Assembly: GCF_016861605.1 (NCBI RefSeq)
Contig: NZ_BOLM01000005.1
Location: 1 to 64,000 of the forward strand
DNA from: Levilactobacillus wangkuiensis
GTDB taxonomy: Bacteria > Bacillota > Bacilli > Lactobacillales > Lactobacillaceae
Direction: 5' to 3'
Length of the DNA stretch: 64,000 bases
The notes under the pieces were generated by a model. It was not told the DNA's origin and searched no databases. It was given only the letters and a program-made list of their open reading frames with translations. The translations under genes and the position numbers were made by a program. Positions 20,714 to 62,202 of this stretch are shown in pieces; the first letter of the stretch is position 1, and every line of letters starts with the position of its first letter.

Positions 20714-20756
20714 ACGTTGCGCCTCCGGACTGGTGAAAACTGGGTCTGGTCGCGTC

Positions 20757-20940
20757 CGTTCCCGGCGGCGCGCTCAAGGCGCCCTGCTGTGGAGTCGGTT
20801 CCAGCCTGAGAAGCGGGCTTCCACCTCAACTTTGAGCCTGAGGAGCGGTCTCAAAGGTTGTCCCATGGGCTAGGCTGGGAAAATACCCCAGCCAAGACCA
20901 TCGACACAGCCGGTCACCTTGGCTCGCCTCTGGTCACCCC
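20757..20940 (-). repeat. Structured intergenic repeat, subtype 1 (after recO)
   Basis: Inverted copy beginning CGTTCCCGGCGGC. It has closing arms CAAGG/CCTTG and CTGCTGTG/CACAGC, hairpin A GGCTGGG/CCCAGCC (20873-20893), hairpin B CTTTGAG/CTCAAAG (20830-20856), and the hairpin C loop CCTGAGAAGCGGG. It marks the end of the core block before the accessory island. The rest up to 21063 shows nothing recognisable. Confidence 0.85.
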
Positions 20941-21063
20941 CACGACCGGCCTAGTTTTCCCAGCTCTGCGGCTGACACGGGTTTAGCCCATCGACTGGGT
21001 GGGGTTATCTGTGGTAGTTGGTATCGCCTGGACGACAACGTTAAATATAAAAAGAAATACGAA

Positions 21064-21112
21064 AATACCGTTCAGAATTTTCCATCTAGGAAATTTTGAA
21101 CGGCATTTTTGT
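21064..21112 (+). terminator. Terminator-like hairpin, copy 1 of a pair flanking the toxin locus
   Basis: AATACCGTTCAGAATTTTCC pairs with GGAAATTTTGAACGGCATT, with a T run. A close relative lies at 21671-21716, on the other side of the toxin-antitoxin region. Confidence 0.65.
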
Positions 21113-21198
21113 GTAGTGTTCGTTTTAAGAAAGTTTTTGATGTTGCACAGCCTTGGTCAGCTCACCTAATAAAATAAAGGATGCACCACTGCCTATGA

Positions 21199-21204
21199 TA
21201 TAAT
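21199..21204 (+). promoter_or_regulatory. -10 box of the toxin transcript
   Basis: A perfect TATAAT about 100 bp before the small toxin frame, a leader length like that of Fst-type toxin RNAs. The -35 region is poor. Confidence 0.45.
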
Positions 21205-21302
21205 GACCTCATGTAGGAAGTTTTAAGGGCGGTGGCTGTCTTTTCCCTTATGAGGTGATGTCTATGGGGACATGGAATAAACTTTGAAAGGTTTCGCAGT
21301 CA

Positions 21303-21389
21303 GTGAGTGTGTTTCAGGCACTTTCGTTGATGTTACTGTTTGGCACGTTTTTAATAGCGTTGCTGACGTACATTGACAAGCATAAATAA
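21303..21389 (+). CDS. Fst/holin-like type I toxin peptide
   Basis: A 28-residue peptide from GTG 21303: MSVFQALSLMLLFGTFLIAL, then LTYIDKHK. A short N-terminus, one hydrophobic helix and a charged tail match the 'putative holin-like toxin' / Fst-Ldr family of lactobacilli, which damages the membrane when over-produced. The ribosome site GAAAGG lies about 12 nt upstream. It is too short for most gene finders. The GC-rich palindromic region just downstream and a minus-strand promoter fit the usual antisense RNA antitoxin. No experimental support; the call is by family shape and sequence. Confidence 0.7.
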   Translation: MSVFQALSLMLLFGTFLIALLTYIDKHK

Positions 21390-21531
21390 AAAAGCCGCCC
21401 CGATGTAACTTTGGTCGGTTACGGGACGTCTTAGCTGTCGTTTTGTTGCTAGCCACCGCCTTTAAAGCGGCTTGCTGTGAGAGGGTCTGGTGTACAACCA
21501 CCAGGCCTTTTCGTTTACCCTCATATAATAT
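21390..21531 (-). ncRNA. Candidate antisense RNA antitoxin (RNAII-like) of the type I locus
   Basis: On the minus strand a TATTATAT -10-like box lies near 21523-21530, followed by hairpins reading into the toxin 3' region. AGCCACCGCC near 21452-21461 is the complement of GGCGGTGGCT at 21229-21238 in the toxin leader, and GCTGTC recurs in both places. Such paired leader and tail repeats with convergent transcripts are the par/Fst arrangement. The ends are estimates. Confidence 0.45.
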
Positions 21532-21670
21532 CATTCTAAAGGCGCTCAATCAACAATTATCCCTTACGCTTGGGAACCGCCTGTGCTCGTGTATCTAGTC
21601 TTAGCATGGTGCTACTAGTGAATTTAATGGGATAGAAAAACCAAAATTTGCGACCAAAATTTGAAACAGA

Positions 21671-21716
21671 GAATACCGCCAGTTTTCCTTTAAGGAATTC
21701 TGAACGGTATTTTTGT
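21671..21716 (+). terminator. Terminator-like hairpin, copy 2 of a pair flanking the toxin locus
   Basis: AATACCG...TTCC pairs with GGAATTC...CGGTATT and a T run. It is similar in sequence and in the following GTGTA to the hairpin at 21064-21112. The 21532-21670 stretch between the antisense promoter and this hairpin holds nothing else recognisable. Confidence 0.6.
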
Positions 21717-21721
21717 GTACG

Positions 21722-22138
21722 CTAGTTTGTTTTGATGTCACCCCACCAGTCTGGGAGGAGATCATCGAGGGTGACGGTCTGTCTGGTCGCGTAATCGGCC
21801 ATGATTTGGGTGTGGCGGTTGTTGGGTGAAAACTGCAAGAGGGTTTCGCGACAAACACCACAGGGCATGCCACTGATGCCGGTTGGCGGCGCGTCACGAA
21901 AGGCAATTAGGCGTTGGACTTCTGTTTCGCCACTGGTCGTGTACATGCTGAGCAATGCGACCCGTTCAGCGCAGAGGTTGAGGGTGCCAGACAGGCCCTC
22001 GATACAAAATCCTGTGAAAATTTGGCCAGACTTACTTTGCAACGCACAGACAACGTTGTGTGCATAAATAAACTCATTGACGGCTTCCGGGTGGTAGAGC
22101 GGTTTCGCCGCTTGGTAAAGCTGTTCCCAAATGTCCAA
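21722..22138 (-). CDS. cdd: Cytidine deaminase family protein
   Basis: A 138-residue homotetramer-type zinc deaminase. The zinc ligands are the cysteine of CAE (56-58), which also supplies the catalytic glutamate, and the two cysteines of PCGVC (93, 96). GFCIEGLSGTLNLCAER is close to the substrate-site pattern of cytidine deaminases that turn cytidine or deoxycytidine into uridine. The C-terminus is slightly longer than usual. A strong GGAGGTGA ribosome site precedes the ATG. Other nucleoside or antibiotic deaminases (blasticidin S type) share this fold, so the substrate is not certain. Confidence 0.8.
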   Translation of the reverse strand: MDIWEQLYQAAKPLYHPEAVNEFIYAHNVVCALQSKSGQIFTGFCIEGLSGTLNLCAERVALLSMYTTSGETEVQRLIAFRDAPPTGISGMPCGVCRETLLQFSPNNRHTQIMADYATRQTVTLDDLLPDWWGDIKTN

Positions 22139-22362
22139 AAGAGGTCACCTCCCAGTAAAATTAAGATTAATTTTAGCACAAACCAATCGGTAGCACAGAA
22201 TAGTTGGCGGATGGATACTCAATTCATAAAATCAATATGTGAAATAGTCTCTTAATGGGTGGATATGATTAAGGTAGGCGATTGTCTTTCGGCATGCTAT
22301 TCTGGAGATACGATTTTCAGAAAATAATCGGCAAAATTTTGTAGTCGCTGGGGGAGAATAAT

Positions 22363-23154
22363 TTGGGGATTATTTGGCACCGCTTGAACCGACGCTGGCT
22401 CATCGTGGCGTTTGGACTGGCAGTTAGTTTGGCGATGGGACAGTTTTTGCAGAAATTGCCCCAAGTAAGTGGACACACGCCGTTCTTCTTGTCTCCCTAT
22501 ACGGAGTGGCTTGGCATTGATAATTTTAGTGCACTTGCGATGGCGTATTATTTGTTACTACCGCTGCTGGCAGTGTTGCCGGTGGGGAGTCTGTTGCAAC
22601 AGGATCTGCGCAATGGCTTTCATTACCAGTTGCGGATGAAACGGTCGGTAAAAGCAATTTTCCGGGGGTATTTTGGCTGGTCATTTATTTTAGGCGGTTT
22701 GGTCGTGAGTGTCCCGCTAGTCATGAACCTGCTGGCCTATTTACTAGTTCTGCCCAATTTACAGCCAGATAATCTCCTACATAGCAATGTCTTGGTTGTT
22801 CAAGATAATACGATCAATGTGGGGTTGTACTATGCGCATCCGTTCTGGCACGCGATGTTGTCGATTGGGCTGGTCTTCGTCTGGGGCGCCTTGTTATCAT
22901 GCCTGGTCACGGGCCTAAGCTTTTTTACGACGAAGCCGTTGGTGGCGTTCGGGAGTATGGCGTTCGGACAGATTGGCCTACTGATGGTAGACGCCTTCAA
23001 CTGGTTGCCCCACAGTTTGGCACCCGCTAATCTGTTGAAGGAATCGGCCAATGCCAGCGTGACGGGACTAACGATGGTGGTCCTGACATTAGGTTTAGGT
23101 GTTGTCACTCTGGGGGTAATGACAGTTGGCTGGCGGCGGTACCTTTATGCGTAG
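22363..23154 (+). CDS. ABC transporter permease-like membrane protein
   Basis: A 263-residue hydrophobic protein with about six membrane segments (near 14-30, 60-80, 104-130, 165-190, 195-215, 235-255). It is the first gene of a four-gene unit whose third gene is an ABC ATPase. It starts with TTG at 22363, 6 nt after GGGGGAG. The shape fits ABC-2-type exporter subunits such as those giving bacteriocin or antibiotic immunity, but I recognise no specific family motif. Confidence 0.7.
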   Translation: MGIIWHRLNRRWLIVAFGLAVSLAMGQFLQKLPQVSGHTPFFLSPYTEWLGIDNFSALAMAYYLLLPLLAVLPVGSLLQQDLRNGFHYQLRMKRSVKAIFRGYFGWSFILGGLVVSVPLVMNLLAYLLVLPNLQPDNLLHSNVLVVQDNTINVGLYYAHPFWHAMLSIGLVFVWGALLSCLVTGLSFFTTKPLVAFGSMAFGQIGLLMVDAFNWLPHSLAPANLLKESANASVTGLTMVVLTLGLGVVTLGVMTVGWRRYLYA

Positions 23155-23809
23155 AGTCTGGCGCCAGCAATATCACCAATTACGGTTGCGTTGGCGTAGC
23201 GGGTGTCTGTTCATGTTGAGCATGAGCCTCTTTGTAGCGGCCCTGCTACGGGAAACGTTTCAACCAGGGGTAACCGTGCCCACTGTTTATGCGTATCTGT
23301 TTAACAGCCAGCTTTTCAGTACAATCTACTTGCCCCTGTGTTTGATGGCAAGCCTCAGTTTATTTGACTACCGGTTACTGGATTATGGTCGATTTGGTCG
23401 CAAACGGGTTTGGTTTTGGCAATTGTCGATCCAGAATTTTATTATGCAGGGGATGTTATGGGGACTGTGGTCGGGCAGTCTGTTATGGCAAAGTTATTTT
23501 TTAGGCCATTGGGTAGCCGTAAAAGTCATGCTGTGGGGATGCCTACAATTGAGTATGCATCAAGGATTCTTTGTCACTCTCAGTCTGATTTTGTACTGGT
23601 CACTGCGCAAAAAGATTGTGGCCATACTGGGCATTTGGTTGTTGGAAGTGGTCAGCTTAGATTTACTACAGCAACCAACCTCACCATTTTTCAAGTACAC
23701 GCACTTGGCCCCGTTGGGCAGTCATTGGGTAGCTGCTTTGGTCGTATGTTTGGGCTGGGGAGCGGCGATTATAGGGTTACGTTGGCTGATTGATTGGCGC
23801 GATAGTTAG
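23147..23809 (+). CDS. Second ABC-associated membrane protein
   Basis: A 220-residue protein with a basic N-terminus (MRRVWRQQYHQLRLRWRSG) and about six hydrophobic segments. It overlaps the preceding membrane-protein gene by 8 bp and is 11 bp from the ATPase gene. It is probably the partner permease subunit. No family signature is recognised. ATG 23147 was chosen because the basic stretch gives a natural cytoplasmic N-terminus; the ribosome site is weak, which agrees with translational coupling. Confidence 0.65.
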   Translation: MRRVWRQQYHQLRLRWRSGCLFMLSMSLFVAALLRETFQPGVTVPTVYAYLFNSQLFSTIYLPLCLMASLSLFDYRLLDYGRFGRKRVWFWQLSIQNFIMQGMLWGLWSGSLLWQSYFLGHWVAVKVMLWGCLQLSMHQGFFVTLSLILYWSLRKKIVAILGIWLLEVVSLDLLQQPTSPFFKYTHLAPLGSHWVAALVVCLGWGAAIIGLRWLIDWRDS

Positions 23810-23820
23810 GAGGGAAGACC

Positions 23821-24447
23821 ATGGCACTCATTCAAATGAAAAACGTGAGCAAACAATTCTACCATCAACCAGTCCTACGAGACGTTTCATTGGAAATTGA
23901 AGCGGGCGCAATCACGGTGCTGACGGGCATTAATGGTTCCGGCAAGACACTCATCTTAAAAGCCATGCTAGGCTTGATGAAAACGCAAGGGACAATCAGG
24001 GTCAAACAAACACCCATCAAGGTCGGTCAAGCCTATCCAATCACGGCAGGAATTATGATTGAGGCCCCCAGTGTACTCCCGGAGTTTTCGGCGTTAACTA
24101 ATCTGCAACTGATTGCGGATCTGATGCCGGGCGTGACAGACGATGCGCTGTTAGACCTATTAACGGAATTTGATTTGCCGACTTCACGTTCTGCTAAGGT
24201 ACGTCACTTTTCGCTAGGGATGAAGCAGAAATTGGGAATTGCCCAGGCTGTCTTAGGGAAAAGTGAACTGATTGTTTTAGATGAACCCACGAATGCGTTG
24301 GATGCGGCCAGCATCAAGAAGTTAGTTGCCTACATAAAACAATTACAAGCTGGTGGGAGCACGTTGGTGATTGCCTCGCATGACCAGGCATTCGTGACCG
24401 CTGTAGCGGATCAACAGTTACGCGTTGAAGCGGGGACTGTTAGATGA
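23821..24447 (+). CDS. ABC transporter ATP-binding protein
   Basis: A 208-residue ATPase that powers the exporter of this operon. The Walker A GINGSGKT lies at 36-43, the signature FSLGMKQK near 130, and the Walker B LIVLDEPTNALD near 151-162, with an H-loop ASHD further on. The compact size (one nucleotide-binding domain, no C-terminal extension) fits exporters of the bacteriocin-immunity type. RBS AGGAGG. Its TGA overlaps the ATG of the following gene (ATGA). Confidence 0.93.
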   Translation: MALIQMKNVSKQFYHQPVLRDVSLEIEAGAITVLTGINGSGKTLILKAMLGLMKTQGTIRVKQTPIKVGQAYPITAGIMIEAPSVLPEFSALTNLQLIADLMPGVTDDALLDLLTEFDLPTSRSAKVRHFSLGMKQKLGIAQAVLGKSELIVLDEPTNALDAASIKKLVAYIKQLQAGGSTLVIASHDQAFVTAVADQQLRVEAGTVR

Positions 24448-24995
24448 CGAGAAAACGACAGTACTTTATCGGGGGACTGCTGGTAGTTATCGGCTTCGTT
24501 TTAGGGGGCGCTTGGCAGTTCCAACGAGTAAATCGCGGTGTGACGACCAAGCCAGTTGTCGAGCAAATTGTGCAGCCACATCAATGGAGCGGAAGCCGGA
24601 AAGCTCAGTTCAAAATGCTGGCGGCCACTCAGCGAGCAGTCACCGACGGCAAGGAAGTCACGCTGCATTTATTCATGCAATCGATAAAGCCAGCTAACTA
24701 CGGTTTTCACGCCAATAATTTAAATATGATTGAAAATATGTGGCTAAACATCCCGTATAGCATCAGTAATCAATCGCGCGGTATGCAACATCCCAATGGA
24801 CGGTATTACACAGAAAGGGAATGGCAACAGCCGACGATAAAATATGTGACTTTGCGCTTCCTGGTGATTCCTAACAGCTATCAGCAACGCCAACAAGCTG
24901 CGCGATTTAGCTTCCTGGTCCCAGAACGTTCAGACCAATTTGTGAAGTACTCTGTGCTATTGAACCTGGATCATGATGGATCGGTCTTAGCTTAG
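24444..24995 (+). CDS. Hypothetical membrane-anchored protein of the ABC operon
   Basis: A 183-residue protein with one N-terminal hydrophobic segment (7-25) and a soluble extracellular part of ~155 residues. No known domain is recognised. Start and stop overlap with the ATPase gene make it part of the same transcript. An anchored extracytoplasmic accessory component is a reasonable guess; there is no lipobox cysteine, so it is not a lipoprotein. Confidence 0.65.
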   Translation: MTRKRQYFIGGLLVVIGFVLGGAWQFQRVNRGVTTKPVVEQIVQPHQWSGSRKAQFKMLAATQRAVTDGKEVTLHLFMQSIKPANYGFHANNLNMIENMWLNIPYSISNQSRGMQHPNGRYYTEREWQQPTIKYVTLRFLVIPNSYQQRQQAARFSFLVPERSDQFVKYSVLLNLDHDGSVLA

Positions 24996-25027
24996 TGAAT
25001 GGAAGTTTTGACTGCTATTGGATAGAA

Positions 25028-25073
25028 AGAAGATGGTGTCCTCAAAAATCGAGGATGCCATCTTCTTTTTTGA
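25028..25073 (+). terminator. Intrinsic terminator of the ABC operon
   Basis: GAAGATGG-TCCTC pairs with GAGGA-CCATCTTC, followed by a T run. The A run on the other side makes it possibly bidirectional. Confidence 0.9.
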
Positions 25074-25191
25074 AGAAAAAATTGGAATGATCCCACAAAC
25101 AGAGAGCACCCGTTTTACTAGATCCACAATGGATTGAACATATTTCCAGCCACTTTCACGGTTAAAAAAGTAAGCGAAAACAAACACTCAC

Positions 25192-25220
25192 TTTCAAAAC
25201 AATACAGCTAGCTGTATAAT
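25192..25220 (+). promoter_or_regulatory. Promoter and palindromic operator of the marR-MFS unit
   Basis: TTTCAA at 25192-25197, a 17-bp spacer and TATAAT at 25215-25220. A perfect 16-bp palindrome ATACAGCTAGCTGTAT (25202-25217) overlaps the -10 box, a typical place for a MarR dimer to block transcription of its own gene. Confidence 0.8.
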
Positions 25221-25238
25221 AATCAGTGAGGTGATGAC

Positions 25239-25664
25239 ATGAACAGTGACCAATTGGTTTCTTGGAAATTAGTTTTGCTAGGGCGACAGATTCGCCACCA
25301 ACGAAATCTCTTTGTCCGGAACCTATCGTTAACGAGTGCACAAGCGGATGCTCTCCGTTTTTTCACGGATCATCCCGCGGGAACGATTACGGACTTTAAA
25401 GAACAACAGCAGGTGACCCACCAGACGGCTCGACTCATGGTCAAACGCCTGGTCGACCGACAGTTGTTAGTCTTACAACCGAATCCCGCTGATGGCCGAG
25501 CCAAGTTGGTCGCGTTAACGCCAGCCGGGCAGGCCAAGCTTCAACAGTTAAACGCGCACATCAAGACGACCAGCCAGGCGTTATTCACCGGGTTCACGCC
25601 CGCCGAACAGCAGCAGTTATTGGCGATGCTCGGCCGGATCGGTCAAAATTTGGAAAGGAACTGA
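25239..25664 (+). CDS. MarR family transcriptional regulator
   Basis: A 141-residue winged-helix dimer. The DNA-binding part shows SLTSAQADALRFFTDHPAGTITDFKEQQQVTHQTARLMVKRLVDRQLL and then the wing with PADGRAKLVALTPAG. It probably represses itself and the MFS gene 6 bp downstream by binding the palindrome over the promoter, and releases it on a ligand such as a toxic small molecule. The ligand is not known. Confidence 0.92.
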   Translation: MNSDQLVSWKLVLLGRQIRHQRNLFVRNLSLTSAQADALRFFTDHPAGTITDFKEQQQVTHQTARLMVKRLVDRQLLVLQPNPADGRAKLVALTPAGQAKLQQLNAHIKTTSQALFTGFTPAEQQQLLAMLGRIGQNLERN

Positions 25665-25670
25665 GGTCGT

Positions 25671-26828
25671 GTGAAAACACGCTTATACACGAAAGATGTT
25701 AAATTAGTTTTAGCCGCTAGCTTCTTCTTTTTGATGAGTCCCATGCTGGTCAATCCCATTATCGCGGGCTTTTCAAGTAATGTAGGGGCTAACAGTGTTC
25801 TAGCCGGAATCGTTGCCGGGATGATGAACCTGACATCACTGATTCTTCGGCCATTGGCAGGGAATCTGACCGACCGTTTTTCTAAGTATCGCTTAAGTTC
25901 GATCGGTGCCGGCTTTATTCTGGTCGCCTGTATTGGCTACGGGGTCTCCACGGCGGTGCCCCTGATCATGCTGTGGCGGGTCGTCAACGGGATTGGTTAC
26001 ACGCTATGTTCCGTTTGCATGGCGACCTGGATGGCAAGCCTGTTACCGGTCGACCGCATCGGCGCGGGGATGGGCATCTACGGGATTGCGAATGCCTTGG
26101 GCATGGCGATTGGACCCGCGGTTAGTGTGTTCCTGTACCATCACTTTGGGTACCGCAGTGTTTTCTGGGTAGCGACAGGCTTCATTGTTCTGTTGCTCCT
26201 GACGATTCAGTTTGTTGGGGATAAAAGTGTGCCCCATCCCGATTACCGCAAAAGTAAGGGCCAGCATGAAAAATTGCGGCTGGTTCAACCCAAAGTTGTG
26301 CCGGTGGCGGCCATTCTCCTGCTGTTCTCGTTACCATACTTTGCTACGCAGACGTACATCGTGAGTTACGTCTTTCACCGGGGTTTTGCCATTCCGGCGG
26401 GGGCCTTTTTCCCCGTCTACGCGTTAGTCCTGTTGGCGATGCGGCTAATTCTTCGGGATGCCTTTGACCGGGTGCCGTTTAAAAAATTCTTCTGGATCTG
26501 CCTGGGATGCAATCTGATTGGCATCGTGGGGCTGACCGATATGGACAACTGGGCCATGCTGATTGTGGGCGCGGTCGGCTTGGCTGCCGGCTATGGGCTG
26601 ATGTTTTCCATTTGCCAGGCCAAGTCACTGACGCTGGTCCCCAAGTCCGACCGGGGCCTGGCCAACAGCACATTCTACATCGGCATCGACTTGGGAATGA
26701 CGCTGGGACCGATGCTGGCGGGGGTCATCACGACCTTCCTGCCATGGATCTGGCTCTATCCAGTCATGGCCATCACGTTGCCCGCGATTGTCGGGGTCTA
26801 TTGGGAAAATCGGCGTGGCCTGGCTTAA
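25671..26828 (+). CDS. MFS transporter (drug efflux type)
   Basis: A 385-residue permease with twelve predicted membrane segments. The family loop between helices 2 and 3 is visible as RPLAGNLTDRFSKYR (the GxLaDrxGrk-like motif A) and helix 5 contains GAGMGIYGIANALGMAIGPAVS (the antiporter-type motif C). GTG start 6 bp after marR, in one operon. The MarR control suggests export of a toxic compound. The substrate cannot be told. Confidence 0.9.
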   Translation: MKTRLYTKDVKLVLAASFFFLMSPMLVNPIIAGFSSNVGANSVLAGIVAGMMNLTSLILRPLAGNLTDRFSKYRLSSIGAGFILVACIGYGVSTAVPLIMLWRVVNGIGYTLCSVCMATWMASLLPVDRIGAGMGIYGIANALGMAIGPAVSVFLYHHFGYRSVFWVATGFIVLLLLTIQFVGDKSVPHPDYRKSKGQHEKLRLVQPKVVPVAAILLLFSLPYFATQTYIVSYVFHRGFAIPAGAFFPVYALVLLAMRLILRDAFDRVPFKKFFWICLGCNLIGIVGLTDMDNWAMLIVGAVGLAAGYGLMFSICQAKSLTLVPKSDRGLANSTFYIGIDLGMTLGPMLAGVITTFLPWIWLYPVMAITLPAIVGVYWENRRGLA

Positions 26829-26932
26829 TGGCTAACAAATCAATGGGCCAGTTGCCGTAGTCGTGGTACACTAACTTCATATTGAATTTTAATCAAATTC
26901 TTATTATTTTGACATAAAGGGAGTTCTTACAT

Positions 26933-27898
26933 ATGAAGTATCGGCAATTAGGCAAATCAGGGTTACGCGTCAGTGAATTGGCATTAGGAAGCTGGCTCAC
27001 GGATGTCAGTGATGCCGCCAAACAGGACCTGGCCGCTCAGAGCATCAAATTAGCCTATGAAAATGGCATCAACTATTTCGACTGTGCGGACGTGTATAGT
27101 CGCGGGGCCGCCGAACGTTTCTTGGGCAAGGCCCTCCAACAGTTTCCCCGCAAGGAATTGGTGGTTTCCAGTAAGGTTTTCTTCCCGTCAGACCGGGGCG
27201 TTAATGACCGTGGTCTCTCACGGAAACACATCACCGAATCCATCGACCAGTCACTGACCAATCTCCAGACGGATTACTTGGACTTGTATTTCTGCCACCG
27301 CTTCGATCCACAGACGCCGTTAGCGGAAACCCTGACGACCTTGAGTGGTTTGGTCGATCAAGGAAAAATCCTCTATTATGGGGTCAGCGAATGGACGCCG
27401 GTACAAATTTTAAAGGCGGAGCTGATTATTCAGGAACGGGGGCTACACCCAATCACCGTGGTGCAACCCGAGTACAACATGTTTGACCGCTACATTGAAC
27501 ATGAACTGTTGGACTTGTGTGGCGAACTCGGACTGGGCGTCGTGCCATTCTCACCCTTGGCGCAGGGCCTATTGACTGGGAAGTACCGGCAAGGCCAGCC
27601 CGCACCGGCCGGGTCCCGGGGCACGTTCCAACCAGACCTGCAGGCGCAACTGGTGCCAGAAAATTTGGCAAAAGTGACAGAACTCGCTAAGATGGCCGCA
27701 GAATTGGACACGGATCTGGCAACCTTTGCCTTGGCCTGGGACAAGCGGGATGCTCGTATCTCCAGCCTGATCATCGGGGCCAGCAAGCCCGCACAGCTAC
27801 AGAATAACTTAAAGGCCGTTGACCTGGAGATTCCAACCGAGTATGAAGCTCGGATCGATAAACTATTTGGGTTTAAGAAGTTTTTCCGTGAAATTTAA
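26933..27898 (+). CDS. Aldo/keto reductase
   Basis: A 321-residue TIM-barrel NADPH oxidoreductase of the potassium-channel beta-subunit / YghZ-like subgroup. Conserved parts are MKYRQLGKSGLRVSELALG, the catalytic aspartate and tyrosine in FDCADVYSRGAAERFLGKAL, the lysine in VVSSKV, LDLYFCHRFDP, and the cofactor site SPLAQGLLTGKY with GASKPAQLQNNLKA. The natural carbonyl substrate is unknown. It has its own upstream gap and a downstream terminator. Confidence 0.93.
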   Translation: MKYRQLGKSGLRVSELALGSWLTDVSDAAKQDLAAQSIKLAYENGINYFDCADVYSRGAAERFLGKALQQFPRKELVVSSKVFFPSDRGVNDRGLSRKHITESIDQSLTNLQTDYLDLYFCHRFDPQTPLAETLTTLSGLVDQGKILYYGVSEWTPVQILKAELIIQERGLHPITVVQPEYNMFDRYIEHELLDLCGELGLGVVPFSPLAQGLLTGKYRQGQPAPAGSRGTFQPDLQAQLVPENLAKVTELAKMAAELDTDLATFALAWDKRDARISSLIIGASKPAQLQNNLKAVDLEIPTEYEARIDKLFGFKKFFREI

Positions 27899-27908
27899 TC
27901 GTTTTTGA

Positions 27909-27953
27909 AGTGCATTCGGCCGCTCGGCTTGAGCCGGTGGATGTGCTTTTTTA
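27909..27953 (+). terminator. Intrinsic terminator of the aldo/keto reductase gene
   Basis: GTGCAT-CGGC pairs with GCCG-GATGTGC around a GC-rich loop, followed by six T. Confidence 0.8.
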
Positions 27954-28015
27954 ATTGCTAAAGTGTATGTCTGTAAAGTCTTCGAAAAGCTTTTGTATCA
28001 AGGCTGTAAAGCACA

Positions 28016-28044
28016 TTGACAGGCATTTTACACACTGCTAACTT
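28016..28044 (+). promoter_or_regulatory. Promoter of the helicase-nuclease operon
   Basis: A perfect TTGACA at 28016-28021, a 17-bp spacer and TAACTT at 28039-28044. TGTAAAG occurs twice upstream (about 27971 and 28005) and TTTTACAC lies in the spacer, a possible regulator site. Confidence 0.55.
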
Positions 28045-28073
28045 AGAAAATACATAAGTGAAGGAGTGAGTAA

Positions 28074-31000
28074 ATGACCGGATTGGATTTTGCAGCAATC
28101 TTTGGTAAAGCCCAGCGGCTGACCACGGCGGCCGACCCTGGTTGTTTGGTGACCGTGCCAGCACCAACTGGTAGTGGGAAGACGTACGGAATTATTCATT
28201 ATATTAGTCAAACGGTTGTCAACACAACTGACAGGCGTTTCTTTTTCGTCACTGTTAAAAAGAATAATTTGCATATCGCAGGTTTTCGGGCAGCCGTTGC
28301 GCATGAATTTGAGCAGGAAAATGGTCCGTTTAAGACTCCAGCAGCTCGTGAAGCCTATCTCAACCGGACAATCGCTGTATTACACGCCTTAGGGGAAATA
28401 ACGGGTGAGGTCATTACCAGTCGATTACCAGCAGAACTATCAGCAAGTGAAAAAGTTAAACAAGCCTTGGGTAACTTGCAAACCTATCATGAACGCTATA
28501 ATCAGCAGCCAGAGAAACAGTCCCTGGCCGGCCGTAATGATTTTCAAAATTTAAAATTGGCGTATACAACCTTTAAACGAGAAGTCTTCAAAATATTGCG
28601 ACAAACGTTAATGCTCAGCGACCCACTGACGAAGGCGGATAAGGTGACGCTTGAAGAATATGTCAATGCGGATGAGACGGACTTAGCACACTATTTGAAT
28701 CAGTATTTTCCTGAAATCAACCTTAAAAAATACCGGTTGGTGCTGCTCACATGGGCAAAGTTTGTGCGGACCTTTCCGTCGTTTTATAGTCAGAGGTCCA
28801 TCCCGGTCACTGCCACTAGCTGTCTCGGCAACGCCACGGTTATTTTAGATGAAATTGATGAGATGAAATCCCAACTGGTCGACAAAATTATTGATGACGC
28901 AACGAAGGTCCCACTGGATTTTCTGTCATTGTTTCGGGAAATCCGAAGCGGCGTCAACAATCTACAAAAGAAACGACCGGAAGACGTGATGTCTGTGCTG
29001 CGGCAGCGGGGAAAATTTGGCCAACTAAAGAAACGAGTCAATCACCTAGCCGCACAGTATGAACTAACGGAAGACTATAAAACAATTGATGCGATGACGA
29101 CGACTAATTTTATCTTTAATCTGGACAGCCTCACGATTAGTAGTAGTCACGGGTGGTGGAGTCACCGTGACCTTCCAGGCAGGCGGGTTGTTCTATCGGG
29201 ACAACGTGTTGCGGCGAATGATTTAAAATTTTATCAAATGATTCAAAGGATGAGTCAGTTTTTCAGTAGCTTTATTCACCTGTTGGTCGAATGGGCTGGA
29301 AAGTATTGTCAGCAAGTTAACGCGCAACGATTGGTGATTGAAAATCAGTTGGAACTAGAAGATGCAATTGCCACAATTTGTGATTGCCTGTGGTTATCCG
29401 TTGACTCCAAGAAATTAGTCCTTGGCATGTATCATCAGGCACCTTTGAAATACCGTAAAACGGTGAAGCCCACAACCGATGGTCAGTGTGGCCACTATCT
29501 GCAACGAAACGGCCTGCAACTGATTGCCTTAACGGATAGTGATGCCCATTTGAATCGAACAAAAATTAGTGCAGCGTTAGTCCAAGAAACCCCAGAAAAG
29601 TTTCTCATTCAGCTGGCACAACGTGGGATAGTGGTTGGCATGTCCGCGACGGTTAAGGTTGATACGGTGATTAACAACTTCGATTTCAACTTTATTCGTG
29701 AGCAGTTAGGCGACCGACTCATAGATGGGTTGGCGGATTTACCTGTAAGTGTTCAGAAGCAATTTGACACCAGTCAGCGTTGTCGGGCAAATGGGGCTAA
29801 AGTGATTGTCAAGGAAACGGCTAAGGTACAGGTCTCTACTGAGAGTGGCGGATGCATGCGCCAATTAATTCATGAACTGTGCCCTGAGGTTGCCTTGGTT
29901 CCCGAGCAGCTGGGGCAGCTAAGAACACTCGAGATGCTGGTCAAACAGAAGATGCAAGGGATTCGCACCACTTATCCGAACAGTGATGAACGACAGCTGG
30001 TCTCGTTTGTTCAGCAACGCTATTTGGATTTGTTCATGAGTTTTATCTGTTTTTTGGGATTTTCAGATAAGACGACCTTCTTGGGATTACAAAGCGTGTT
30101 GCCCAAGATAAAAGGGGAAGAAAATGAAATTCAGATGTCACTGGATTTTGTGATGCAAGTCTTTAAGCTACTGGCACAACTACTGTGTGCCGATGAACCA
30201 CAGCAGCCACAATTACGACCAATTGCCAAAAAGTTCGCGACAGATAAGCAAACAGTTAGCGAACAAATTACGGCCGCACTTGAACTACCAGCTCAAAAGG
30301 AGACAAGGGTGTACTTACTGAGCTCGTACGCCACTCTGGGAGTTGGCCAAAATCTCCAACACGATATTGGCAGGCTTGAAACAGGTAAGACAATTGATGT
30401 GGCACCAGTTAATGTTGATCCGAATGATCCACGACGGCAGATGGTGGATTTAGCCGGAATCTATTTGGGACGGGTCACAAATATTTTCACCCAGGTTCCA
30501 CAGGTGGCAACTGAAAAGAGCAAGCTACAGTGGATTCGTGCCTATTATGAATTGCTGAGCTTGGCTGATAATAATGAGGTCTCACTCCTAGATATCAGGA
30601 AGTACGCCAAGAAACAAAGCCTAGGGAATCCACCCAAACAATTTCGGAACACGATTAGCTACGTTGGCGCCCATACGCAAGTTATTTTGCAAGCACTCGG
30701 TCGGATGGACCGGTCATTTAATAAGCTACCAGAAACACTCGTGATTTTGGGAGCGGATGTCCGGAATTACTTTAACGTGTCCATGCTGGCTGACTATCAG
30801 TTGGGACCCGAAGCCCAGGCCATTCGCAACCTGCAACGAGAAGCGGCAGATTCGGTTCAGACGAACGAGAAAATTCAGTTTGAACGCTGGTCTAACCGAA
30901 CTCTAGAAACGCAGCGGGCGGTTAATGAAATGGTGGGCCAACTTCAGAAGGATACCAAGACTGCTAACCGGTATCAAGACTTTAGGGAGCACTTATTATG

Positions 31001-31685
31001 CCATCCCACACCCACTTTTGATCAGTACCATCAATGGGAGAAGAAACCAGAGGGTGCCTATTTAGACAGCGAGGTAAGTCAATATCAGGTTGCCCGATCC
31101 GGTGAGAACTTTACGTTTGGAACGGATAGTCGTGGGACGGAAGAAGTTTCTGCTGAGACGGCGGGACTGCCTACCCTGCTGAAATATCCGGGGATGCAGG
31201 CATATTTCGATTCTCAGGGGTGGGCAACCACCTGGGAGAAGACTGGGTTTATTGTCAATCCGGTTCAGTTTGATAATTACTTGGGGATACTTGGTGAGGT
31301 TGCCGGCAAATTTATTCTTGAAGACCGCTGGGCGGTTAAGCTCAGAACACTCCCTGCAGGCAATCATGAGCTCTTTGATTTTCAAACGGCGGACCACGTC
31401 TATCTTGATTTTAAGAATTGGCGGCATCCCCACGACCAATCGGCCATAGCGGAACGCAAGCATGTGCAAGACAAACTGGATCGTTTGACTGATGTGCAAG
31501 AGCGACACAGTAAGCGGGTCCTCATCGTGAATTTGATTGAAACGGCGGGGACACAAAAGTTTGTGCCGAAAATAACGCGTAATGGACAAATCATGGAGGT
31601 ACCACAGTTGTTAGATGCACAGGGAAAATTTGCTTTGACGCCTGAACAGGAAAAAATGATGGGGGATTTTTTAAATGGTAGATAA
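28074..31685 (+). CDS. SF2-type helicase with predicted C-terminal PD-(D/E)xK nuclease domain
   Basis: A 1203-residue protein not assigned to a named family. The Walker A is APTGSGKT (30-37) and the Walker B is ILDEIDE with DEID near 259-262. Motif III is GMSATV near 522-527 and motif VI is QALGRMDR near 873-880, so a complete DEAD/DEAH-like ATPase spans ~900 residues with large inserts. Residues ~1060-1150 show a restriction-nuclease pattern: a glutamate in LGEVAGKF (~1075), an aspartate in FDF (~1102), then DFK (1112-1114) in YLDFKNWR and a following hydrophobic strand VLIVNLI. It likely moves along or remodels nucleic acid and cuts it. It overlaps the next gene by 11 bp. Base use is more AT-rich than the core genes, suggesting transfer. 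Anti-phage defence is an inference. Confidence 0.75.
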   Translation: MTGLDFAAIFGKAQRLTTAADPGCLVTVPAPTGSGKTYGIIHYISQTVVNTTDRRFFFVTVKKNNLHIAGFRAAVAHEFEQENGPFKTPAAREAYLNRTIAVLHALGEITGEVITSRLPAELSASEKVKQALGNLQTYHERYNQQPEKQSLAGRNDFQNLKLAYTTFKREVFKILRQTLMLSDPLTKADKVTLEEYVNADETDLAHYLNQYFPEINLKKYRLVLLTWAKFVRTFPSFYSQRSIPVTATSCLGNATVILDEIDEMKSQLVDKIIDDATKVPLDFLSLFREIRSGVNNLQKKRPEDVMSVLRQRGKFGQLKKRVNHLAAQYELTEDYKTIDAMTTTNFIFNLDSLTISSSHGWWSHRDLPGRRVVLSGQRVAANDLKFYQMIQRMSQFFSSFIHLLVEWAGKYCQQVNAQRLVIENQLELEDAIATICDCLWLSVDSKKLVLGMYHQAPLKYRKTVKPTTDGQCGHYLQRNGLQLIALTDSDAHLNRTKISAALVQETPEKFLIQLAQRGIVVGMSATVKVDTVINNFDFNFIREQLGDRLIDGLADLPVSVQKQFDTSQRCRANGAKVIVKETAKVQVSTESGGCMRQLIHELCPEVALVPEQLGQLRTLEMLVKQKMQGIRTTYPNSDERQLVSFVQQRYLDLFMSFICFLGFSDKTTFLGLQSVLPKIKGEENEIQMSLDFVMQVFKLLAQLLCADEPQQPQLRPIAKKFATDKQTVSEQITAALELPAQKETRVYLLSSYATLGVGQNLQHDIGRLETGKTIDVAPVNVDPNDPRRQMVDLAGIYLGRVTNIFTQVPQVATEKSKLQWIRAYYELLSLADNNEVSLLDIRKYAKKQSLGNPPKQFRNTISYVGAHTQVILQALGRMDRSFNKLPETLVILGADVRNYFNVSMLADYQLGPEAQAIRNLQREAADSVQTNEKIQFERWSNRTLETQRAVNEMVGQLQKDTKTANRYQDFREHLLCHPTPTFDQYHQWEKKPEGAYLDSEVSQYQVARSGENFTFGTDSRGTEEVSAETAGLPTLLKYPGMQAYFDSQGWATTWEKTGFIVNPVQFDNYLGILGEVAGKFILEDRWAVKLRTLPAGNHELFDFQTADHVYLDFKNWRHPHDQSAIAERKHVQDKLDRLTDVQERHSKRVLIVNLIETAGTQKFVPKITRNGQIMEVPQLLDAQGKFALTPEQEKMMGDFLNGR

Positions 31686-33786
31686 CGTACCGGTAGCTTT
31701 GACAAATTTAGTGGACTATGAATTCGATGAGGTCGGCTTTAATCAGCGATTGCGGTTAATTTTAGTTGAGACGGACCATCCCGGCAAACTACCAAGTTGG
31801 TTCGATGCTTGTCCAGTTTTAGCGATTCATAAGTTGGCGAAGCAGTATGATGCTCGGGTGGGTAAGGCAATTGGTCCCAGTCGTTATTTAGCATTGATGG
31901 TCCAAAGCCAGCCAGTTCCGCAAGAGATGACTGACGTTCACCCTAAAATTGTGACGTTGCAGCAGGCTATCCAGCAGAAAATTACCCCGGACACAATCGT
32001 TATGCTCATGCTCAAAGCCGTCAAACAGTGTCAGTTTGATGAACAACTCGTACTCAGAAATCAGCGAGCCACTGACCGTTTGTTATTAGTGCATAGACAA
32101 ACAGAAAAAACATTGGTTGCAGTCGAGGTCGACTTAAAAGATCATATTTTACAATTGCGCACGCGGACCTTTAAACCAGTGGTAGCACCACAAAAAATGG
32201 GCTTTTTAGCTAGTGACGGGTGCTTGAGGTGGGCAGGCACGGCGCCCGGCAAGTTGTGGGACCAACATCATGTTCATGGCCGGAAAAATACAATTGATTT
32301 CTTTACGCTGCGGGCACTGGCTGATTTCACACAAACCAAAGTGGGTCTTCAGAATGCCCTCCTGAAAGATCTCAAGCAGGCGTACGGGGATTGTTTTCGT
32401 CAATTGCCGCATTTTCACGCCAGTGAGGTGATGGCTTATTCACCCAAAACCAAGGTGCCGGCAATCAAGCAGGTGATGACGTTACTACAAAATCAGAGCC
32501 TGCATTTGATTGGCGATGCTAGCGAACCCCACATTCACGCGTTGCTCGTGCATTTGGCAGATAGAGTCCGGACCAGCCCTCAACTTGTACGGGCAGGTGT
32601 AACAGTCTCAGTTGGTGAGCAGGCCGTGGCGGGATTGAATCTGCAAGTCGTGATGGACGAGCAGGACCCACGTTATCAAGTTGGCCGTAATGATCAAGTT
32701 ATTCAACATTTAACCTTTGAGAAGTTTGGGAACTTTGATGCGGTCAAACAGCAGTACCAGTGGCAGGGTGACCAGCAAGCCGACCTGATGGCGAACAAGC
32801 AATTCTTGATGACGGTGGTCCAGCTACTAGTTAAACGGGATATTTCGACTGGTGAGCTACGGTTGCCTACAGCTGTGAAGGCTGACACCGCTGGGCACTT
32901 TAAGTATTTATTTTTCGATAGATTGAGCAAACGGGCGGAACCGCTAAACCTTGTCGTTACACGCTTAGCCATTACACCTGATCAACGCGTGATTTTTGAA
33001 GAGACGCACATTCAAGGCGAAATCAACGATTCTACCGCAACTGAGCTCCAGCGAACAGTTAAAAGAATTTTGGCTGTGACCGGGGAAAATCCCTATCTGT
33101 TACAGGGGGCAATTCAAAGCCAATCTGGCCTCTTTGCCATCTATGGGACAAATTTGATTACGGTTCCAGATGCGGACAAGATTACTGCTCAGTTGCGCTC
33201 GGGTAGCGAAGAAAACTTGGTTAGTCGGCAGGATCTGTTGACAATCGCTCAGGGGTTAGTTATTGACCAGGAGCATGTGTTGCAGCAGCAACAGCTGATT
33301 GCCGAACTCACACAGCTAACGAAGACCGAGTTGACGATTCGAGAGCTGCGAATGACCCTTAAGTTAAGTTGGAGAACGAACGCCATGAAAGCGTTCAACG
33401 CCGCGTTTCATCAGGCTCAGGGTCAATGGCTAAAATTACCTATTCGGCAAAAGGTGTACGAGGCATACTGGACAGGAACTTGCGGGATGGGCTTGCTTGA
33501 ATTGAGTGGCAGTACCTATTACTTTATCGGGCGCAGTAGCGCGCTAGAGACTCAGCAGAAGCGGGCGATTCCTTTGAAGAAAATTGTGGCCATTGGCAGT
33601 TTGCAACCGAAGGCAGACGTGTACAAAATTTTTCATGAGCTAGAATCACTCATGCAGGTCGGCTTTGTCCGGTTGAATCAATACACCGTCATTCCGTTTC
33701 CCTTTAAATATTTACGAGAATACACTGATCTTCGGCGGCATCAGACAAACCAAATGAAGGGGGCCACCGCTGCCAACACGGATTAA
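31675..33786 (+). CDS. Unrecognised 703-residue partner protein, possibly pPIWI-RE-like
   Basis: It starts with ATG 31675 inside the helicase-nuclease gene (11-bp overlap), so both are surely made together. It has no signal peptide, membrane segment or clear catalytic motif. Segments that may be diagnostic are VLAIHKLAKQYDARVGKAI near 45-63, LNLQVVMDEQDPRY followed by VIQHLTFEKFG near 320-350, and the C-terminal FPFKYLREYTDLR. The gene pairing (helicase, nuclease and a large partner), the QHLTFE stretch and the proline-phenylalanine-rich tail remind me of prokaryotic PIWI-RE proteins, whose operons also carry a helicase and a restriction-type nuclease. This resemblance is from memory and unproven. 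Confidence 0.55.
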   Translation: MVDNVPVALTNLVDYEFDEVGFNQRLRLILVETDHPGKLPSWFDACPVLAIHKLAKQYDARVGKAIGPSRYLALMVQSQPVPQEMTDVHPKIVTLQQAIQQKITPDTIVMLMLKAVKQCQFDEQLVLRNQRATDRLLLVHRQTEKTLVAVEVDLKDHILQLRTRTFKPVVAPQKMGFLASDGCLRWAGTAPGKLWDQHHVHGRKNTIDFFTLRALADFTQTKVGLQNALLKDLKQAYGDCFRQLPHFHASEVMAYSPKTKVPAIKQVMTLLQNQSLHLIGDASEPHIHALLVHLADRVRTSPQLVRAGVTVSVGEQAVAGLNLQVVMDEQDPRYQVGRNDQVIQHLTFEKFGNFDAVKQQYQWQGDQQADLMANKQFLMTVVQLLVKRDISTGELRLPTAVKADTAGHFKYLFFDRLSKRAEPLNLVVTRLAITPDQRVIFEETHIQGEINDSTATELQRTVKRILAVTGENPYLLQGAIQSQSGLFAIYGTNLITVPDADKITAQLRSGSEENLVSRQDLLTIAQGLVIDQEHVLQQQQLIAELTQLTKTELTIRELRMTLKLSWRTNAMKAFNAAFHQAQGQWLKLPIRQKVYEAYWTGTCGMGLLELSGSTYYFIGRSSALETQQKRAIPLKKIVAIGSLQPKADVYKIFHELESLMQVGFVRLNQYTVIPFPFKYLREYTDLRRHQTNQMKGATAANTD

Positions 33787-33806
33787 CACCGTTTCCCCTA
33801 AATCCA

Positions 33807-33835
33807 TTGACAACCCCACCCCAGACGACTATCAT
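33807..33835 (+). promoter_or_regulatory. Promoter of glyQS
   Basis: A perfect TTGACA at 33807-33812, a 17-bp spacer and TATCAT at 33830-33835. It starts only 20 bp after the accessory gene ends. Confidence 0.8.
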
Positions 33836-33844
33836 AAAACTCAG

Positions 33845-34062
33845 TTAAATAAGTCGATTATGATGAATGAAAAACGCAGTGGTTGTTCTCAGCGAGTCCG
33901 GGGTAGTGTTAGCCGGATAACGGGTGCTGTGGGTTGGCACATTCGGAGTCGTTTCCAAGTAAGCTGCTAGTCAGTCTGTGACTAGAAGTAGGGTGGAACC
34001 GCGAAAATTTTTTCGTCCCTACGTGAATTTGCCTCGGTGAATTCTCGTGGGGATTTTTTTGC
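33845..34062 (+). promoter_or_regulatory. T-box leader of glyQS
   Basis: The T-box core AGGGTGGAACCGCG lies at about 33990-34003. The Stem I part (GAGTCCGGGGTAGTG) precedes it, and a terminator with arms CCCTACGTGAATT/AATTCTCGTGGGG and seven T lies at 34015-34060. Binding of uncharged tRNA-Gly would prevent termination. Confidence 0.92.
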
Positions 34063-61305: not shown

Positions 61306-62202
61306 ATGACGGTATTAGAGAATCAAACGGCCGACTTTGCCCATTACCTAACGGTGGAACAGGGCTTAGCGGCGAATTCCGTGGCCAGCTACACCCAGGA
61401 ACTGCGGAATTTTAGTCAGTATTTAACGACGAAAAAGGTTGCCGACTTTAAACAAGTTGACCGTCTACAGATTATGGCTTACCTCAGTGCCCAAACGGCT
61501 GCCGGTAAGTCCCGCAACTCTGTGATCCACGCGGTGTCGGCGCTACGAAAGTTTTACCGCTACCTGGTGCAGACCCATCAGCTAACAGACAATCCGATGG
61601 CCAACGTGGCCGCTCCCAAGCACGCCCAGCATTTGCCGGCCGTGTTGACGGTGGCTGAGGTCGACCGCCTGTTGGCGACCCCCGATACCAGTAACAAGTA
61701 CGGCTTGCGGGACCGGGCCATTTTAGAGGTCATGTACGCTACTGGCTTGCGGGTGAGCGAGCTGGTCCATTTGAAGCTGGTCGACTTGCACCTGGAGATG
61801 GGGCTGATTCAAACCCTAGGGAAGGGCGACAAGGAACGCATCATTCCCATCGGGGACGTAGCGGCAGACTGGATCAACCGGTATTTACAAGATAGCCGGC
61901 CGGTCCTGTTGAAGCAGCGGACCAGTCCCTACCTGTTCTTGAATGGGCACGGTGGCGGACTGTCTCGACAAGCCATTTGGCAAAAAATCAAGCATTACGT
62001 GGGCTTGGCGGACATCCAAAAGGACGTGACGCCCCATACGTTGCGGCATTCCTTTGCCACGCACATTCTAGAAAATGGGGCGGATCTGCGGGTCGTTCAG
62101 GAACTCCTGGGCCACGCGGATATCACTACCACTCAAATTTATACGCATATTTCAAAGAAACGCCTACTAAATGTCTATGACCAGTACCATCCGCGCGCAT
62201 AG
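61306..62202 (+). CDS. xerD: Site-specific tyrosine recombinase XerD
   Basis: A 298-residue tyrosine recombinase that resolves chromosome dimers at dif with a partner. It has an N-terminal SAM-like domain, then the active-site set: arginine in ATGLRVSELV (~149), lysine in GKGDKERIIP, HTLRH (~244-248), the histidine in LLGHADI, and the nucleophile tyrosine in IYTHIS (~279). RBS AAGGAGG. The context before scpA-scpB, and not next to an island edge, favours the housekeeping XerD over an element integrase. Confidence 0.94.
   Translation: MTVLENQTADFAHYLTVEQGLAANSVASYTQELRNFSQYLTTKKVADFKQVDRLQIMAYLSAQTAAGKSRNSVIHAVSALRKFYRYLVQTHQLTDNPMANVAAPKHAQHLPAVLTVAEVDRLLATPDTSNKYGLRDRAILEVMYATGLRVSELVHLKLVDLHLEMGLIQTLGKGDKERIIPIGDVAADWINRYLQDSRPVLLKQRTSPYLFLNGHGGGLSRQAIWQKIKHYVGLADIQKDVTPHTLRHSFATHILENGADLRVVQELLGHADITTTQIYTHISKKRLLNVYDQYHPRA

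Follow-up and report, generated by a model that had tools for sequence, protein, structure and literature searches.

A probable DdmDE plasmid-defence operon in the variable recO-glyQ interval of Levilactobacillus wangkuiensis

In DdmDE systems, as reviewed (PMC12409362), an Argonaute that is guided by DNA but catalytically inactive recruits DdmD, which is an autoinhibited dimer until then and afterwards translocates 5'-to-3' and cuts. Solved structures exist for the systems of L. casei (PDB 9ix4, 9iw3, 9ixm) and Vibrio cholerae (PDB 8u0u, 8u0j, 8u3k, 9ezy, 9bgk). ApsAB of Escherichia coli ST38 likewise combines a helicase-nuclease with an Argonaute-like partner and acts against plasmids, and its ApsB is reported to be without sequence similarity to DdmE (PMC11096173). 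One passage of a review appears to swap the names DdmD and DdmE (PMC12904381). Here we describe two overlapping genes of Levilactobacillus wangkuiensis that very likely form a DdmDE plasmid-defence operon in the Levilactobacillus chromosome. They lie in a stretch of 64,000 nucleotides (positions 1 to 64,000 of contig NZ_BOLM01000005.1, assembly GCF_016861605.1; "the window") from a genome of 3.1 Mb.

28074..31685, + strand: ddmD, 1203 amino acids, ATG start; SF2 helicase with C-terminal PD-(D/E)xK nuclease
31675..33786, + strand: ddmE, 703 amino acids, ATG start; Argonaute-like partner
31675..31685, + strand: overlap of the ddmD end with the ddmE start, 11 nucleotides, a presumed site of translational coupling

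A first-pass annotation, made from the sequence alone, had proposed these two overlapping open reading frames (ORFs) as a candidate new defence system. The frames were confirmed exactly. Neither protein matched Pfam or NCBIfam models above their cut-offs. However, PADLOC, one of the checks the annotation had recommended, named both, calling the first protein DdmD (E 1.2e-29) and the second DdmE (E 4.3e-9). In searches against solved structures, residues 11-1202 of the first protein matched L. casei DdmD (PDB 9ix4) with an E-value of 3.4e-149 and V. cholerae DdmD with 1.2e-31, and residues 190-689 of the second matched L. casei DdmE with 4.5e-38. By single-sequence search the second protein is barely recognizable as a relative of V. 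cholerae DdmE (E 2.6e-5). Profiles built from lactobacillar relatives extended these matches to E-values of 0 (L. casei) and 1.1e-68 (V. cholerae) for DdmD, and of 2e-205 and 8.8e-15, respectively, for DdmE.

Structure prediction, also recommended at the outset, was carried out for the second protein. The AlphaFold model, computed from an alignment of 22 rows (21 distinct), has a pLDDT of 88.3 and a pTM of 0.86. The six best matches of this predicted fold in the PDB are DdmE structures from L. casei and V. cholerae, followed by other Argonautes. As regards the Argonaute slicer tetrad, aspartate stands at residue 491, on the strand that we take to carry the RDG motif, in one of the 22 rows. Because PADLOC, the solved-structure matches and the predicted fold agree, the second protein, earlier said to be of no clear family, is DdmE, an Argonaute-like protein, and the family membership of both genes is established. 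What survives of the original proposal is that the two genes are coupled and belong to a defence family, with an SF2 helicase fused to a PD-(D/E)xK nuclease as the first protein. A new kind of system is ruled out by the matches to DdmD and DdmE, since DdmDE is already represented in PADLOC and in the PDB, including by a lactobacillar structure.

The DdmD motifs had been correctly placed and numbered: APTGSGKT (Walker A) at residues 29-36, DEID at 259-262, SAT at 524-526 and QALGRMDR at 873-880, with predicted nuclease residues E1075, D1102 and D1112-x-K1114. In an alignment of 19 intact relatives, the window protein included, all 19 rows share helicase residues K36, D259, E260, D262, S524, A525 and T526, residues Q873, G876, R877 and R880, and nuclease residues E1075, D1102, D1112 and K1114. 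The active-site residues are thus intact. Compared with the three closest relatives (genomes G017, G015 and G002), both genes have dN/dS ratios of 0.14-0.21, which establishes purifying selection. Together with the solved-protein matches, these ratios show that the pair is no product of chance. The adjacency of ddmD and ddmE, as read from gene order, is operon-like in the window and in relatives. The overlap between the two ORFs is 8-50 nucleotides in the relatives listed, where every ORF is taken to begin at its earliest start codon, and the 11-nucleotide overlap seen here suggests translational coupling.

The window pair shares with L. casei DdmDE the same two components, with matches near full length and the same predicted DdmE fold, but its DdmE is only 22% identical to the solved L. 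casei protein in a structure-based alignment. The pair forms a remote branch within this family. With V. cholerae DdmDE it has in common the helicase-nuclease and the Argonaute-like partner, and the DdmD nuclease residues align. The V. cholerae genes are on the VPI-2 island (PMC12409362), whereas the window genes occupy the interval between recO and glyQ. It is scarcely credible that the locus encodes an ApsAB-type system, in which the same class of helicase-nuclease is joined to a different Argonaute-like partner. In PADLOC as in the PDB, the matches of the two proteins are to DdmD and DdmE, a comparison that did not extend directly to ApsA or ApsB.

DdmD was detected in 10 of 35 genomes of the genus and in 23 of 397 sampled genomes of the family, representing 8 of 40 genera. 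Eight genomes are common to the two samples, giving 25 carriers overall. This sporadic distribution rules out a core pathway. The outcome that the first-pass annotation had named as refuting its proposal, universally conserved core genes, thus did not occur because the homologues are accessory. In 24 of the 25 carriers, DdmD has a DdmE match next to it on its own contig, which establishes co-occurrence. In the remaining carrier, G011, contig C30 begins with DdmD and also bears recO, and DdmE adjoins glyQ on contig C62.

The ddmD frame is fully open in 19 of the 25 carriers and is broken or in pieces in the other six (G158, G327, G082, G044, G342 and G395). In two further carriers, G261 and G350, ddmE is interrupted by an in-frame stop, and in G327 and G395 it was found only as pieces. 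Decay is therefore common in the family, and a decayed, non-functional copy in the window has to be considered. However, neither window frame is interrupted, no active-site residue is missing and the dN/dS ratios given above indicate constraint, which together make such a copy highly improbable. All of the broken ddmD copies are in other genera, which suggests frequent loss.

The mechanism proposed for the window operon is modelled on the L. casei and V. cholerae systems, and guide type, recruitment, DNA destruction and target in the Levilactobacillus host would all follow by analogy. DdmE, itself presumably non-cutting, would bind short DNA guides and pair them with plasmid DNA. Guide-paired DdmE would then recruit DdmD, otherwise an inactive dimer, which may load onto the displaced strand and move 5'-to-3' by its SF2 motor. 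Cutting by the PD-(D/E)xK domain would lead to loss of the plasmid.

The first-pass annotation had linked the pair to anti-phage systems. Yet the documented target of DdmDE is plasmids and not phages (PMC12409362), and by this precedent the operon is presumably anti-plasmid rather than anti-phage. Several observations weigh against the assignment to plasmid defence. One is the low identity between the window DdmE and its L. casei counterpart. Another is that the plasmid replication family Rep_3 is no rarer in carriers, occurring in 6 of the 17 genomes whose ddmD is open, compared with 128 of 397 in the whole family sample. The fraction is 5 of 15 when the two genomes with a stopped ddmE are set aside and 2 of 6 among genomes with a broken ddmD. 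Similarly, Rep_1 is found in 1 of 17 open-ddmD genomes and in 23 of 397 overall, so it too is no rarer, and in none of the six with a broken ddmD. These counts come from draft genomes with plasmids of mixed sizes, have low power and are no test of elimination. PF01719 had no match in the window's own genome, the one genome searched for it.

In addition, the window genome (G000) contains a 5.8-kb contig with a Rep_3 gene (C40, 5837 bp) alongside intact ddmDE. Matches to plasmid records numbered 896, all to parts of the contig, and none covered 80% of it. The 12 matches listed are to plasmids of 6-30 kb, each of them from a lactobacillus or a pediococcus. The contig has no terminal overlap to show circularity. 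The plasmid relatives of this contig carry a toxin-antitoxin pair.

The background rates of Rep_3 and Rep_1 in carriers, and the plasmid-like contig in the host, are what might be seen if the genes were DdmDE by descent but served mainly in defence against phages or integrative elements in Levilactobacillus. We regard that duty as unlikely. The characterized DdmDE targets plasmids (PMC12409362), and the related ApsAB is reported to be anti-plasmid and to have had no effect on eight phages (PMC11096173). Plasmid defence is the function that we continue to favour.

The operon occupies a defined position among core genes, as outlined by the following features.

20714..34036, no strand: recO-glyQ variable cargo slot, containing an ABC-ATPase cassette, a MarR-MFS pair, an aldo-keto reductase (AKR) gene and ddmDE (Pfam; recO-glyQ spacing in 28 genomes)
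27899..33786, no strand: ddmDE insert as delimited against G030, a genome that lacks ddmDE (blastn)

Homology with G030 ends at 27897 and restarts at 33787, and 92 bp separate these points in G030. The GC content of ddmDE is 47.0%, compared with 52.4% in the rest of the window, so the operon is AT-richer than its surroundings, as was first proposed. The proposed island is borne out as a variable interval between recO and glyQ. Of the 35 genus genomes, 28 have both genes on one contig, and the distance between their matched ranges is 234-283 bp in nine of these and 0.9-13.3 kb in 19. ddmDE is within the slot in 5 of the 28 (G000, G015, G017, G009 and G026). In G002, G010 and G011, ddmE adjoins glyQ and a contig break precedes recO. 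The slot is nearly empty in G001 and G008, whose ddmDE genes lie elsewhere. In G026, ddmDE stands alone in the slot apart from short ORFs.

More generally, the interval is a cargo slot in Levilactobacillus that ranges from 234 bp to 13.3 kb. Fourteen occupied intervals without ddmDE were retrieved; their contents include genes related to the MarR-MFS pair and to the aldo-keto reductase, as well as other ORFs, some of them long. Within the window slot, a four-gene cassette (22363-24995, + strand) encodes one ABC ATPase and three proteins without a Pfam match at E <= 0.01; in L. mulengensis the ATPase gene is divided between two ORFs. An ORF at 21722-22138 (- strand) possibly encodes a cytidine/deoxycytidylate deaminase-like protein (24.9 bits, just below the Pfam cut-off of 25), and related DNA occurs between recO and glyQ in G009, G014 and G007. 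A match to rli28, a Listeria small RNA, lies at 21189-21371 (+ strand; 59 bits compared with an Rfam gathering score of 45).

Origin of the insert from a phage or plasmid was considered and gained no support. Relatives of DdmD were found in 2 of 72,556 plasmid records, both distant, and in none of 50,697 phage records, although absence from such collections does not exclude this origin. The window contains no tRNA, and there is no mobility gene among the slot genes with Pfam matches; two slot proteins and some small ORFs have no match. A phage-integrase-family gene is present at 61306, 27 kb away. No second defence system was seen nearby among the 19 window proteins covered by PADLOC. Besides DdmD and DdmE, PADLOC returned four matches, which are DnaG, RpoD, a Clp-type ATPase and an MMPL protein by Pfam; because of these Pfam matches, they are read as housekeeping proteins or chance hits.

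In a phylogenetic tree of DdmD, the eight slot copies form one clade (support 99/98) beside a pair of off-slot copies, and the ten group together with support 100/100. The slot clade was not resolved in the DdmE tree, which included seven of the eight slot copies. DdmD identity to the window protein drops to 70% in G009, 56% in G026 and 48-49% in G010 and G011, whereas era, recO, glyS, AKR and MFS, where compared, are 86-97% identical in these four genomes. Other measured genes, including the MFS and AKR slot neighbours where present, have dN/dS ratios of at most 0.05 in the same comparisons that gave the higher values for ddmD and ddmE. Rapid change under constraint is in keeping with a defence system, and allele replacement by recombination would also account for the pattern. 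Because DdmD, a single slot clade with open frames, falls to 48-56% where era, recO and glyS stay at ~90-97%, Levilactobacillus DdmDE might be an allelic defence locus that evolves fast but keeps to a single fixed slot in the chromosome, a reading that we offer tentatively and consider rather doubtful.

Candidate expression signals flank the operon on both sides.

28016..28044, + strand: candidate ddmDE promoter, TTGACA, 17-nucleotide spacer ending in TGC, TAACTT (read from the sequence; mostly conserved in all five aligned upstream regions)
28061..28066, give or take a base or two, + strand: probable ribosome-binding site (AAGGAG region) before ddmD (read from the sequence)
27907..27952, + strand: hairpin and U-tract after the aldo-keto reductase gene (-21.0 kcal/mol, z -3.3, 0 of 200 shuffles as good)
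33807..34023, + strand: glyQS promoter-like site (TTGACA-17-TATCAT) and T-box leader, at the right boundary of the insert and outside the system (consensus scan; Rfam T-box)

The aligned regions are from five of the eight slot genomes, the window included. The pair had been credited with its own promoter, a claim that stands in part. The candidate promoter and the U-tracted hairpin before ddmD speak for it, but a consensus promoter scan, which called nine sites in total compared with 7.8 expected by chance from shuffles, listed none upstream of ddmD. The hairpin is a probable terminator that would insulate ddmDE, and the terminator scan did not list it. The best hit of the promoter scan (33807-33835), which matches 11 of 12 positions, is ruled out as the ddmDE promoter because it is 3' of ddmE, ahead of the glyQ T-box leader. 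That leader scores 58.5 bits (E 1.9e-12), below the family gathering score of 93. In the region upstream of ddmD, a search for RNA families yielded a single hit, no better than chance (E 0.12). Two CTGTAAAG repeats (27971-27978 and 28004-28011, + strand) start 33 bp apart upstream of ddmD and flank a AAAAGCTTTT palindrome, an arrangement partly kept in relatives. The TGTAAA cores of the repeats are kept in the same five upstream regions, and repeats and palindrome together may constitute an operator.

In open-licence literature, which says little about the literature as a whole, we found no paper pairing Levilactobacillus with DdmD and none giving the PDB codes. The assignment places a pair publicly called "hypothetical" or, for DdmE relatives, "DUF2357" in food bacteria within a known guided plasmid defence. 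It adds no new mechanism and predicts a testable plasmid-stability trait. The eight orthologues in one chromosomal slot should be useful for studying the source of DdmE guides and the drivers of rapid divergence. If the locus is indeed allelic and fast-evolving, it may reflect either an arms race, in which the opponents would be unknown inhibitors encoded on plasmids or unknown features of the target, or an exchange of alleles by way of the recO-glyQ flanks.

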